Source of the DNA: Rhodoferax sp.
GTDB taxonomy: Bacteria > Pseudomonadota > Gammaproteobacteria > Burkholderiales > Burkholderiaceae_C
Direction of reading: 5' to 3'
Assembly (NCBI GenBank): GCA_025351745.1
Contig: JANXVI010000106.1
Span: 1-34,779 of the forward strand
Length of the DNA: 34,779 nucleotides
The notes beneath the pieces are model-generated. The model made no database searches, had not been told where the DNA came from, and saw only the letters and a list, made by a program, of their open reading frames with translations. Every line of letters begins with the position of its first letter. Position 1 is the first letter of the stretch. The position numbers were made by a program, and so were the translations under genes. Of the stretch, positions 2,702 to 34,779 are shown one piece after another.

Positions 2702-3718
2702 CTATATGCCTTCGGCTGTGGGGTCACGCCCCATCAGGGCTGCGACCGCTTGCGAAGGCTGAACGCGGCCATCCAGCAAATCCACCACGCAATGTGCAAT
2801 TGGCATCGCAATGCCAAGGCTGCTTGCGCGCTGCACGACGGTGCGTGCGCTGTACACGCCTTCGGCCACGTGGCCTAGCGACTCAATCGCCTGCTGCAGG
2901 GTTTGGCCATGCGCCAAGGCTTGGCCCACACGCCGGTTGCGTGACAAATCACCCGTAGCGGTGAGCACCAGATCGCCCAAACCACTGAGGCCCATGAAAG
3001 TCTCGGCCTTGGCGCCCAGCGCCAGACCCAGACGGGTCATCTCTGCCAACCCGCGGGTGATCAGTGCAGCCCGGGCGTTCAAGCCCAGCTGCAGCCCGTC
3101 ACACAGGCCGGTGGCGATGGCCAGAACATTCTTGACGGCCCCGCCCACTTCGACGCCCACCACATCGTCGTTGGCGTAGACCCGCAATGTGGCGCTATGG
3201 AACGCCAGGACCAAAGCATCACGCACCGTGGCGTCGGCACTGGCGGCGACCAGGGCTGTGGGTTTGCCCAGGGCGACTTCTTGCGCAAAACTGGGGCCGC
3301 TGAGCACACCGGCGCGCAGACCAGCAGCCACCTGCGACTGAATTTCATGCCCCATCAACCCAGGTGCTGGCCCTACGCCGGCTTCAAAGCCCTTGCACAG
3401 CCAAGCCACCGCAGCACTGCAGCCCCGAAGTTGGATCAGCAGACCGCGCAGGCCCGCCATCGGCGACGCCAGGATCACCAAGTCTTCAGGCCGCAAGGCG
3501 ATCAGCAACTCCGGCAGGGCTTGGCTATTGATGTCCAGCATCGATGGCAAAACCACGCCCGGCAAATAGCGTTGATTTTCGCGACGTTGCTGCATGGAGA
3601 GCGCTTGGGCAGCGTCGCGCACCCACAACGTCACTCCATGCGGCGCCAAGGTCTTGAGGCTGGCGTTGACGGCTAGCGCAGTGCCCCAGGCGCCCCCCCC
3701 AATTACTACTATTTTCAT
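2702..3718 (-). CDS. gpsA: NAD(P)-dependent glycerol-3-phosphate dehydrogenase
   Basis: GpsA reduces dihydroxyacetone phosphate to sn-glycerol-3-phosphate, the backbone precursor of membrane phospholipids, in the cytoplasm. The protein has 338 residues, the usual size. The Rossmann dinucleotide loop GGGAWGTA is at residues 7-14. LCKGFEAG carries Lys109, GPSFAQEV is near 141-148, and [11 protein letters not shown] carries the catalytic Lys196. The C-terminal substrate motif [18 protein letters not shown] is present. It is the last gene of the rhodanese-grxC-secB-gpsA run, an order common in Burkholderiales, 51 bases after secB. That gap, and probably the first codons of gpsA, are covered by repeat F copy 1 (3705-3755). 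The start at 3718 is fixed by the Rossmann strand MKIVVIGGG, but no good ribosome binding site precedes it. Confidence 0.95.
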
Positions 3719-3755
3719 AGCATCAGTATCAGTGGATACGAGGGCTAGGGGGCAG
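3705..3755 (+). repeat. dispersed repeat F, copy 1, overlapping the gpsA start
   Basis: In plus orientation a stem-loop region with CTAT...ATAG is followed by ACGAGGGCTAG at 3738-3748. The distance from the stem start (3705) to ACGAGGGC is 33 bases, the same as in the copies at 13107, 22646 and 34190. The first arm falls in the first codons of gpsA and the rest fills the secB-gpsA gap. The stem is weaker than in copies 2 and 3. Confidence 0.6.
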
Positions 3756-3769
3756 TTTTGCCCTAATGA

Positions 3770-7481: not shown

Positions 7482-7562
7482 GGCCCCCACGCTGGTCGCT
7501 TCGCGTACTGCGCTGCCCCCCGAGCGGGCGCTTTCGCCTTGGGGCGGCCCGGCGGCGAAACG
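7482..7562. repeat. GC-rich palindromic intergenic element between ctpA and the moeB-like gene
   Basis: CCCCGAG at 7518-7524 pairs with CTTGGGG at 7538-7544, flanked by further GC-rich repeats. The layout (CCCCCACGCTG, then GCCCCCCGAG, then CCTTGGGGCGGCCCGG) resembles a family I know from Comamonadaceae intergenic regions. There is no T tract, so it is unlikely to be an ordinary terminator. It ends a few bases before the next start codon. Confidence 0.6.
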
Positions 7563-7567
7563 CTGCA

Positions 7568-13069: not shown

Positions 13070-13106
13070 TGTCAGAATACTACCAGCCTTTGACAAGTAG
13101 GGTTTT

Positions 13107-13159
13107 TAGCCGCTGGCCCTCGTGTTTACTGCGTTTTCAGCTATCAATTCAATAGCGAC
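13107..13159 (-). repeat. dispersed repeat F, copy 2, between clsB and folE
   Basis: On the minus strand GCTATTGAATTGATAGC forms a stem-loop (13156 to 13140), followed by ACGAGGGC at 13123-13116. The stem start to box distance is 33 bases. The copy fills most of the gap between the clsB stop (13149) and the folE start, and overlaps the last codons of clsB by about ten bases. Confidence 0.75.
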
Positions 13160-22627: not shown

Positions 22628-22645
22628 ACTATTGGTGAGGGTAAA

Positions 22646-22700
22646 TATAGCCTATAGCCCTCGTAGACATTGCGTGAGCAGCTATTATTTTTATAGCAAC
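22646..22700 (-). repeat. dispersed repeat F, copy 3, between DUF971 and ubiE
   Basis: On the minus strand GCTATAAAAATAATAGC forms the stem-loop (22697 to 22681). After CTGCTCACGCAATGTCT comes ACGAGGGCTATAGGC starting at 22664. The stem start to box distance is 33 bases. This is the cleanest copy in the window. It fills most of the 80-base gap upstream of ubiE, so it lies in or near the leader of the ubi transcript. Confidence 0.8.
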
Positions 22701-32646: not shown

Positions 32647-34779
32647 TCAGACCAGCACCCGCTCTATCCCGCCCGCATTGGCAATGGCCACGTACTCTGG
32701 CAACCATTCCTTGCCCAGGATCTGGTTCGCCATTTCAACGACGATGTAGTCCGCCTCCAGCAGGCCGGTCTTCAGATCGTCCTGGTATCGGTTCAAGCCC
32801 ATCAGGCAGCTGGGGCAGGACGTCAGTATCTTCACGTTCTGGTCGGCCTGCACGCTGCCGGCTGCGCGCAGAGCGGTTTCACCCTTGCGGATTTCTTCTT
32901 CCTTGCGAAAGCGCACCTGGGTCGACACATCGGGACGCGACACTGCCAGACTGCCGCTCTCGCCACAACAGCGGTCGCTTTTGAGCACGTTGTCACCCAC
33001 CAGGGCCTTGACGGTCTTCATTGAGTCGCCCAGCTTCATCGGGTTGTGGCAGGGCTCGTGGTACAGGAAGCCGCCTTGGCCGGCGGGCAAGGTGATGCCT
33101 TTTTCGAGCAGGTATTCGTGGATGTCGATGATGCGGCTGCCGGGGAAGATTTCCTCAAACTTGTAGCCCTGCAACTGGTCATAGCAGGTGCCGCAACTGA
33201 CCACGACGGTCTTGATGTCCAGGTAGTTCAGCGTGTTGGCCACGCGGTGGAACAGCACCCGGTTGTCGGTGATCATCTTCTCGGCCTTGTCGAACTGGCC
33301 GTTGCCGCGTTGCGGATAACCGCAGCACAGGTAGCCCGGTGGCAGTACCGTCTGCACGCCGGCGTGCCAAAGCATGGCTTGGGTGGCCAGCCCCACCTGG
33401 CTGAACAGACGCTCTGAGCCGCAACCGGGGAAGTAGAACACCGCCTCGGTCTCGGCCGTGGTGGACTGCGGGTTGCGGATGATGGGCACGTAATCCGGGT
33501 TTTCAATATCCAGCAGCGCACGAGCCGTCTTCTTGGGCAGGCCGCCCGGCATTTTCTTATTGATGAAGTGGATGACCTGCTCTTTGATCGGCGCTGTACC
33601 GACCGTGGCGGGCGGGGCGCTGGTCTGCTTGCGCGCCACCAGGGACATCAGCCGGTTGCCCATGCGCTGCCCCTTGAAGCTCAGGTTGGTCAGGGCGTGG
33701 GCAAACTGAATGCCGCGCACGCTTTGTGTACCAATGAACCAAGCCTGAAACGCGGACATGGGGCGCCAGCTCTTCTTGCCCATCTTGCGCAGCAGGTTGC
33801 GCATGTTCATCGTCACATCGCCAAAGTCGATGTTGACCGGGCACGGCGACAGACACTTGTGGCACACCGTGCAGTGGTCGGCCACGTCTTCAAACTCTTC
33901 CCAATGCTTGATGGAGACACCACGGCGCGTCTGCTCTTCGTACAAGAAGGCTTCCACCAACAGCGAGGTCGCCAGAATCTTGTTGCGCGGGCTGTACAGC
34001 AGGTTGGCGCGCGGCACGTGCGTGGCGCACACCGGTTTGCATTTCCCGCAGCGCAGGCAGTCTTTGACCGAATCGGCGATGGCGCCAATATCGCTCTGCT
34101 GCATGATCAGCGACTCATGGCCCATCAGCCCAAACGACGGCGTGTAGGCGTTCGTCAAATCCGCGTAGGCCGGGAATGCATTGGATGAATTGGCCTCTAG
34201 CCCTCGTCCGCCTTGGGCACCATGCTCCTGATTTCGTAGCAACTTCCCTTTGTTGAAGCGCCCCTCAGGATCGACCCTGGCCTTGTAATCGGTAAACGGT
34301 TGCAGCTCTTCGTCGGTCAAAAACTCCAGCTTGGTAATGCCAATGCCGTGTTCGCCCGAGATCACGCCATCCAGGCTGCGTGCCAGCGCCATGATGCGTT
34401 TGACGGCGCCATGGGCGGCCTGCAGCATCTCATAGTCGTCGCTGTTGACGGGAATATTGGTGTGCACATTGCCATCACCCGCGTGCATGTGCAACGCGAC
34501 CCACACTCGCCCCTTGAGCACGCGCTGGTGGATGGCAGTGCACTCCTTCAAGATCGCCTGAAACGCTGCGCCGCTAAAGATCTCTTGCAGTGGCGTGCGC
34601 AGCTGCGACTTCCAGCTCGCCCGCAGGCTGTGGTCCTGCAACTGGGCGAACAGCCCTTCGACGCCATCGAGCCAGCCTTGCCACTGGGCGCGCACATGCG
34701 CGACCAGCGCCAGCGCTTGGCCGACGCGGTCTTCCAGCAGCTCGGCCGCGGGGATGTCATTGGCATCGTCGCTCTTGCC
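32647..34779 (-). CDS. FAD-linked oxidase / Fe-S oxidoreductase fusion, 5' end outside the window
   Basis: This is the last 710 residues of a large oxidoreductase that fuses a GlcD-like FAD domain to a GlcF-like Fe-S domain; the frame is open through the window edge. Such proteins oxidise 2-hydroxy acids such as lactate or glycolate and pass electrons to quinones. The end of the FAD domain is seen in HMHAGDGNVHTNIP and GEHGIG. Two 4Fe-4S motifs follow (CLRCGKCKPVC near 34027-34059, CTVCHKCLSPCP near 33841-33873). Two CCG domains follow (CCGYPQ, CCGESG). The substrate cannot be told from this part. Between NKGKL and ADLTNAYTPSFG the protein carries about 25 extra residues encoded by repeat F copy 4. 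Confidence 0.88.
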   Translation of the reverse strand, partial: GKSDDANDIPAAELLEDRVGQALALVAHVRAQWQGWLDGVEGLFAQLQDHSLRASWKSQLRTPLQEIFSGAAFQAILKECTAIHQRVLKGRVWVALHMHAGDGNVHTNIPVNSDDYEMLQAAHGAVKRIMALARSLDGVISGEHGIGITKLEFLTDEELQPFTDYKARVDPEGRFNKGKLLRNQEHGAQGGRGLEANSSNAFPAYADLTNAYTPSFGLMGHESLIMQQSDIGAIADSVKDCLRCGKCKPVCATHVPRANLLYSPRNKILATSLLVEAFLYEEQTRRGVSIKHWEEFEDVADHCTVCHKCLSPCPVNIDFGDVTMNMRNLLRKMGKKSWRPMSAFQAWFIGTQSVRGIQFAHALTNLSFKGQRMGNRLMSLVARKQTSAPPATVGTAPIKEQVIHFINKKMPGGLPKKTARALLDIENPDYVPIIRNPQSTTAETEAVFYFPGCGSERLFSQVGLATQAMLWHAGVQTVLPPGYLCCGYPQRGNGQFDKAEKMITDNRVLFHRVANTLNYLDIKTVVVSCGTCYDQLQGYKFEEIFPGSRIIDIHEYLLEKGITLPAGQGGFLYHEPCHNPMKLGDSMKTVKALVGDNVLKSDRCCGESGSLAVSRPDVSTQVRFRKEEEIRKGETALRAAGSVQADQNVKILTSCPSCLMGLNRYQDDLKTGLLEADYIVVEMANQILGKEWLPEYVAIANAGGIERVLV
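34190..34243 (-). repeat. dispersed repeat F, copy 4, inside the oxidoreductase gene
   Basis: On the minus strand GCTACGAAATCAGGAGC (34240 to 34224) stands in the stem position, with a decayed stem. ACGAGGGCTAGAGGC begins at 34207. The distance from stem start to box is 33 bases, as in the other three copies. The reading frame passes through without a stop. Confidence 0.7.

Follow-up and report, generated by a model that had tools for sequence, protein, structure and literature searches.

An in-frame repeat in a Rhodoferax oxidoreductase gene as a probable site of a long bipartite motif network kept up at the DNA level

The stretch of Rhodoferax sp. DNA analysed here as a whole (the window; 34,779 nt, contig JANXVI010000106.1 of assembly GCA_025351745.1) carries near its end a copy of a dispersed repeat that is read in frame as part of an Fe-S oxidoreductase. 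The question raised by this locus is how a repeat came to be part of a protein-coding sequence and whether it is there as the relic of an insertion. In the first-pass annotation, which was made from the letters of the window, the copy was regarded as an insert resembling the protein-coding palindromic elements of Rickettsia. Here, the copies of the repeat in the same genome, the orthologues of its host genes in related genomes and the codons over which it lies were analysed. With a probability that we put at a little under 60%, the window copy belongs to a network of sites, spread over the genome, that share a long bipartite DNA motif and are kept up at the DNA level.

The element and its place in the oxidoreductase gene

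The box ACGAGGGCTAGAGGC of the repeat occurs with up to two mismatches at 311 places in the 5.1-Mb genome of the window (G000; 498 contigs, 91.7% complete, about 6.9% contaminated), and the reversed box at 11. In the aligned copies about 66 columns are conserved, comprising GCTAT-N7-ATAGC, a 16-nt spacer, ACGAGGGCTAGAGGC, C-N-ATTT and a weak tail, and the motif of about 66 nt can be described as bipartite, the 16-nt spacer separating the left core GCTAT-N7-ATAGC from the right core ACGAGGGCTAGAGGCC-N-ATTT. The mean G+C content of the element is 45% (79 copies). For scoring, a weight matrix of 66 positions was built from 29 other copies. The window copy at 34178..34243 on the minus strand reached 49.1 bits with this matrix, the maximum in 40 dinucleotide shuffles of the window being 8.9 bits. 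Its left core (34224..34240), delimited by the column conservation of 74 genome copies, reads GCTAC-GAAATCA-GGAGC, the right core box (34193..34207) is an exact match, and the conserved ATTT-type tail (34187..34190; conservation of 0.70-0.82 in the 74 copies) is here ATTC, all on the minus strand. The exact box and the matrix score thus confirm the copy of the dispersed repeat, named repeat F, that the first-pass annotation had recognised on the minus strand at this place. Further copies in the window were found at 22635..22700 (minus strand, 64.6 bits), 13094..13159 (minus strand, 43.0 bits) and 3702..3767 (plus strand, 40.6 bits).

A palindrome of the Rickettsia type, implied by the comparison made initially, was not detected: the sole dyad spans 5 bp, without covariation over 54 copies. 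Given this and no Rfam match in the six loci scanned, a hairpin or a structured RNA was rejected. No terminal repeats are evident in the column profile of 74 copies. A RAYT/Y1 transposase is a less likely driver, its family being present in 20 of the 22 element-rich and in 27 of the 38 element-poor genomes and so showing no clear association with the element. The sole Y1_Tnp gene found in G000 (L190, contig C412) lies between weak element-like matches of 14 and 10 bits; 20 Y1_Tnp matches were counted in G015 and 0 to 5 in other genera. In mobile DNA, the consensus of a single dialect matched (E 0.01) no record among 50,697 of phages and three among 72,556 of plasmids, the latter all from Comamonadaceae, and an exact gapped pattern had no match in viral_contigs.

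The host gene (32647..34779, minus strand), delimited by its open frame and Pfam hits, is cut in its 5' part by the contig end. Its reading frame of 710 aa is open through the element and runs off the contig, and the Pfam domains are FAD-linked oxidase C-terminal, 4Fe-4S dicluster, cysteine-rich CCG and DUF3400. Since FAD-oxidase_C covers residues 80-180 and Fer4_8 residues 238-317, the element copy, which encodes LLRNQE...RGLEA, sits in the interdomain linker, and its initial placement in frame between the FAD and the first Fe-S domains was correct. This linker would be tolerant of the motif, and the peptide itself is expected to be without a role. The accompanying statement that in homologues NKGKL is followed almost at once by ADLTNAY applies to some of them, the shortest block having 26 codons, but cannot be generalised: the linker stretch is shared by many relatives, and the block comprises 34-64 codons where the element occupies this site, 66 in L095, and 26-61 codons in linkers free of it.

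The distribution at this linker site was determined in 119 homologue loci, 59 collected automatically (L031-L089) and 60 fetched by place, 60 genomes of the family and 100 of the genus having been searched. The element lies at the same codons in 46 of the 119 loci, at other offsets in two (L033 and L095) and is missing in 71, the scores of positive and negative linkers being non-overlapping (-2.7 bits or above vs. -17.9 bits or below). The position and frame common to 46 homologues are at variance with a lineage-specific insert. Mapped on a tree built from the flanks, presence at this site requires 18 changes, of which no fewer than 12 are forced by branches with good support. The copies at L033 and L095 are offset by +24 and +51 nt in the same linker with the frame unchanged. 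Among named relatives (the best 80 among the matches listed, which partly overlap the 119 loci), 39 score above -3 bits on the G000 matrix, all of these except L432 at a common offset; the carriers include Polaromonas, Acidovorax and Giesbergeria, and the closest named relatives among the matches listed are Rhodoferax MAGs (92 and 90%). In a few further homologues, from Variovorax and Polaromonas, the stretch has the look of a decayed copy and the peptide is similar. Homologues carrying the residues and no repeat-like DNA, which the first-pass annotation had named as evidence against its reading, were thereby found in part, namely two from Variovorax and two from Polaromonas in which a similar peptide is kept although the match of the DNA is weak or gone.

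Another repeat, G+C-rich and some 77 nt long, was picked by eye in the same linker of at least 6 of the 119 homologues (L035, L053, L114, L115, L124 and L149). It is also dispersed elsewhere, for example in the window at 7483-7563 and in the comEC locus L367, and it may be the beta-proteobacterial repeat element (BRE) of PMC3110155.

Copies in other genes and in related genera

In 70 loci around box places of G000, 77 element hits of at least 25 bits were obtained, and around 34 of these the frame stays open for 30 codons or more in either direction. The element is present both outside recognised genes and within many genes, where three reading frames predominate; 12, 7 and 5 of the 26 copies with at least 60 open codons on both sides belong to these three frames, and within genes both orientations and different frames occur. 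Besides the window gene, 17 further genes with in-frame copies were examined in G000: an error-prone polymerase (dnaE2), an FtsX-like permease, xdhA, cca, an EamA-type transporter, trmJ, purK, L-threonylcarbamoyladenylate synthase (sua5), an ImuB-like protein, gluQ, yhhN, a UvrD-type helicase (addA), dnaX, acnA, comEC, an amidase and earP. The family hits of the permease, EamA and the partial dnaE2 are below the curated cut-offs, that of trmJ is just below, and the ImuB-like protein had no family hit; its identity as ImuB and several of the short gene names are our assumption. Neighbours among the 18 genes are purK/sua5, dnaE2/imuB and addA/dnaX (close together in G066). Two similar versions each of the ftsX (L002, L003) and dnaE2 (L001, L029) copies are present on separate contigs of G000, perhaps owing to a strain mixture. 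The central statement of the first-pass annotation, that a dispersed repeat is in frame within a protein-coding sequence, consequently holds and extends to other genes.

The length of the block containing the element was compared between orthologues with and without it. In purK, 44 codons are found in 30 of 30 orthologues, element-bearing or not, their scores being 28-60 bits in 12 and -11 bits or below in 18 with none between, and in the two alignments inspected the element segment matches PurK proteins of solved structure without a gap. Orthologues that have the element and those that lack it can also be equally long in dnaE2 (48 codons), ftsX (49) and xdhA (49); yhhN has 48 codons in both states, with one negative only, and at cca, where 17 of 30 loci are positive overall, a length of 37 codons is common to 8 positives and 6 negatives. 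The block of imuB has 48-54 codons with the element and 25-26 without, and that of gluQ 48-55 with and 23, 23, 27 and 54 without, which amounts to a gain of about 22 codons in imuB and, relative to three of the four negatives, in gluQ. Lengths vary in eamA, trmJ, dnaX, comEC, earP, the amidase and sua5, addA had no negative, and EarP and Cca are longer at the element than distant solved homologues. In acnA, the element was present in 11 of 11 loci found (11 of 41 genomes matched), down to 11.8 bits and with 41-71 codons.

As orthologue lengths are equal in purK, can be equal in other genes and are greater with the element in imuB and mostly in gluQ, the element overlies codons that were already there at some sites and is accompanied by extra codons at others. 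Insertion as the sole mechanism was rejected on the orthologue lengths: those of purK contradict it, and those of several other genes are in poor agreement with it. Since gains of about 22 codons exist, an insertion may nevertheless have occurred at some sites, possibly that of the window copy included. Of the likeness to Rickettsia insertions, the in-frame repeat in genes remains, but an addition of codons does not fit purK, dnaE2, ftsX, xdhA and yhhN, in which orthologues of both states can be equally long.

A covariance model of 54 copies, applied to 60 genera, gave a match in 29, at least 14 matches in 22 (with counts up to a ceiling of 78) and at most 3 in 38; roughly one sampled genus in three is thus rich in the element (named relatives are Comamonadaceae). 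When four other genera were searched again with 150 candidates scored each, at least 61, 116, 139 and 149 matches were obtained. Five genera differ in spacer and box, and leave-one-out assignment to the genus was correct for 133 of 153 copies from these five (largest class 79) and for 131 of 153 on positions 20-39 alone. In a test of the gene copies, which was run with pseudocounts, the best match of the oxidoreductase copy was the genus it came from in 3 of 5 cases with the whole element and in 4 of 5 with positions 20-39, and the yhhN copies did so in 2 of 2 genera with positions 20-39.

The window gene copy was present in 17 of 21 element-rich and in none of 29 element-poor genomes examined in a sample of one per genus. 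Within the same genus, all 35 genomes in which at least two of the distant genes oxidoreductase, purK, cca and acnA could be scored were concordant over the two to four genes, 16 having and 19 lacking the element. With up to 18 genes, G062 (15/15), G081 (18/18) and G066 (18/18) were positive throughout, and no positive gene was found in G091 (0/14), G082 (0/15), G063 (0/15), G087 (0/7) and G044, which belongs to another genus (0/11). The 32 positives among 70 genus rows do not form one clade (4 changes, AU p 0.00027). As the host sites were picked from G000, joint presence in near kin is expected; the informative part is the joint absence on separate branches, which speaks for a common cause. 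The sites are stable in genomes about 80-84% identical in the oxidoreductase protein and jointly absent in others.

Conservation of the DNA and the explanations considered

Upkeep of the element as DNA was assessed at third codon positions with identical amino acids. To keep the test from selecting for its own outcome, the orthologues were chosen on codon positions 1 and 2 only. A total of 187 pairs was kept, 112 of them below 20 bits. For the pairs of at least 20 bits, and with core classes defined on the G000 copies, tested copies included, third-position identity was 477/547 (87%) in the cores, 183/272 at middling positions, 111/190 in the spacer and 4717/7321 (64%) in the flanks. The core exceeded the flank in 72 of 75 pairs and in 18 of 18 genes, or in 17 of 18 when one most diverged pair per gene was used. 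In the 32 pairs with faint signal (0-10 bits on positions 1 and 2) core identity was 96/172, below that of the flank (2163/3398), and in the 65 pairs below 0 bits it was 48/186. In view of the low core identity in pairs below 10 bits, the conservation is confined to orthologues having the element, and the faint-signal pairs show that its maintenance is not universal.

The same upkeep is seen in the choice of codons. At the Leu position of the element CTA is used by 36 of 46 positive oxidoreductases vs. 32 of 3034 flank Leu codons, and at the Arg position CGA by 31 of 46 vs. 29 of 1691 flank Arg codons; among the 71 negative oxidoreductases, the counts of CTA and CGA are 2 and 2. An insertion of the relic type is not in agreement with these data, the cores being conserved at synonymous positions like a maintained DNA site. 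Conservation also differs far more from column to column than if a master copy had decayed uniformly (variance 0.036 vs. 0.003). The copies are more related than independent draws (identity spread 0.0762 vs. 0.0635 ± 0.0017 after shuffling), and therefore some copying between them has taken place. Copies in one genus (G042) form clear sub-families (identity spread 0.116 vs. 0.062 shuffled), which suggests some recent copying in this genus. Outside the box, the pairwise identity of copies is 51-59% in the four genera measured.

If the element were mobile, added length, even decay, no synonymous constraint and independent fates of the sites would be predicted. The first prediction holds at some sites only and the others do not hold; therefore, a network of maintained sites is preferred. 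In such a network, a putative trans-acting factor would recognise the motif, or a recombination process would favour it, candidate drives being sequence-biased DNA uptake and exchange as with DNA uptake sequences (DUS), or a chromosome-organising protein. As long as the factor is present, selection or biased exchange would write and repair the motif at all places where the protein can accommodate the resulting peptide, and upon loss of the factor the sites would erode together. We infer the existence and nature of this factor, and likewise that new sites would arise by substitution or overwriting. More tentatively, at odds that we judge as below even, the element may be a long bipartite address of about 66 nt with genus dialects, written through coding sequence by a putative trans-acting system that some lineages would lose altogether, with joint erosion of the sites as the consequence. 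An address of this kind would comprise some hundreds of sites per genome with a measurable effect on amino-acid and codon choice, and we know of no longer uptake-sequence or genome-address motif.

Among the alternatives, the one that survives best, and which we nonetheless regard as unlikely, is that a short mobile element (MITE-like, cf. the Rickettsia palindromic elements, RPE) was inserted in frame long ago, that its peptides are tolerated and decaying, and that the window copy is shared by descent. Many dispersed copies, the roughly 22 codons by which imuB and, vs. three of four negatives, gluQ are lengthened, the position and frame common to 46 of 119 homologues, the two copies at other offsets in the linker (L033, L095), the entry of the second G+C-rich repeat into the same linker and the Variovorax and Polaromonas homologues resembling decayed copies all fit such an origin. 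It is opposed by the unchanged length in purK and the equal lengths in several other genes, by the synonymous conservation of the cores and the strongly uneven column profile, and by sites that are stable over the identity range given above and jointly absent in other genomes.

A functionless homogenisation drive, in which recombination or conversion between partly similar sequences writes the element in short patches over whatever sequence is present, is quite improbable, although it would account for the overlay without indel in purK, the dialects at orthologous genic sites (positions 20-39 of yhhN in 2 of 2 and of the oxidoreductase in 4 of 5 genera) and some relatedness between copies, and conversion between copies would also yield synonymous conservation. 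A conversion tract should carry spacers and cores alike, but within a genus the spacers are not homogenised like the cores (111/190 vs. 477/547), and the identity of 51-59% outside the box in the four genera measured also speaks against such a drive. Very improbable are a useful linker peptide with a chance resemblance to the repeat, for which Asn at codon 11 in 45 and Glu at codon 13 in 44 of 46 positives would speak but not the 66-nt match far above shuffles, the rare synonymous codons kept and the use of different reading frames and both strands in other genes, and a structured or regulatory RNA element, where conserved cores and fixed spacing are set against both orientations in genes, the lacking covariation and no Rfam match in the six loci scanned.

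If the preferred network of maintained sites is real, a system of sites that spans the genome and has not been described before exists in Comamonadaceae (relatives of Rhodoferax, Polaromonas and Acidovorax) and constrains the sequences of proteins such as PurK, the CCA-adding enzyme, aconitase and the error-prone polymerase, and repeat-like peptides in proteins need not stem from insertion. Relatives with and without the tested sites constitute a natural experiment, and because these sites are present or lacking jointly, the putative factor can be searched for by gene presence and absence.

Comparison with known systems

The box letters ACGAGGGCTAGAGGC were not found in the mostly open-access literature searched, and the accessible text of publications on Comamonadaceae repeats, uptake sequences and palindromic elements contained no description of the element, BRE being nearest. 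REP elements with RAYT transposases are short dispersed repeats with a small dyad. Their tag types include, in the accessible text, GTAG and CGTC (PMC3733652); no GTAG- or CGTC-tagged hairpin was noticed in the present element, and the Y1 transposase does not track it. BRE of Bordetella, Polaromonas and Rhodoferax are, according to the accessible text, of about 90 bp with 69% G+C in Bordetella and up to 29 copies (PMC3110155). They resemble the element as short dispersed repeats in Comamonadaceae with some copies wholly within coding sequences (accessible text of PMC3110155), but the element has 66 nt and 45% G+C.

RPE are described in the accessible parts of the sources as palindromic elements of about 150 bp that are inserted into genes, and similar protein-coding repeats are reported there for Wolbachia and Methanocaldococcus (PMC10969869, PMC2996958). 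Common to these and to the element, which was examined in 18 genes, is a dispersed repeat that encodes parts of unrelated proteins in frame. The element differs from RPE in that it is not truly palindromic, in many cases brings no extra codons and is under constraint at synonymous positions; the addition of codons relative to homologues, by which RPE are recognised, is not the rule for the element and was observed in imuB and vs. three of four gluQ negatives.

The DUS of Neisseriaceae are, in the accessible text, approximately 10-mers with thousands of copies and clade-specific dialects (PMC3630211), and for uptake sequences including those of Pasteurellaceae copies inside genes, a favoured orientation and relatives in which the motif is not abundant are reported in the parts accessible (PMC3630211, PMC2346458). 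The element is similarly over-represented, lies in frame inside genes with one orientation favoured, has clade-specific dialects and is not abundant in some related genomes. It differs by its length of about 66 nt, its bipartite structure and its approximately 300 copies, as opposed to about 10 nt and thousands of copies for DUS, and any link to competence would be by analogy. The network would be most like uptake-sequence dialects in its behaviour, but its length places it outside that class.
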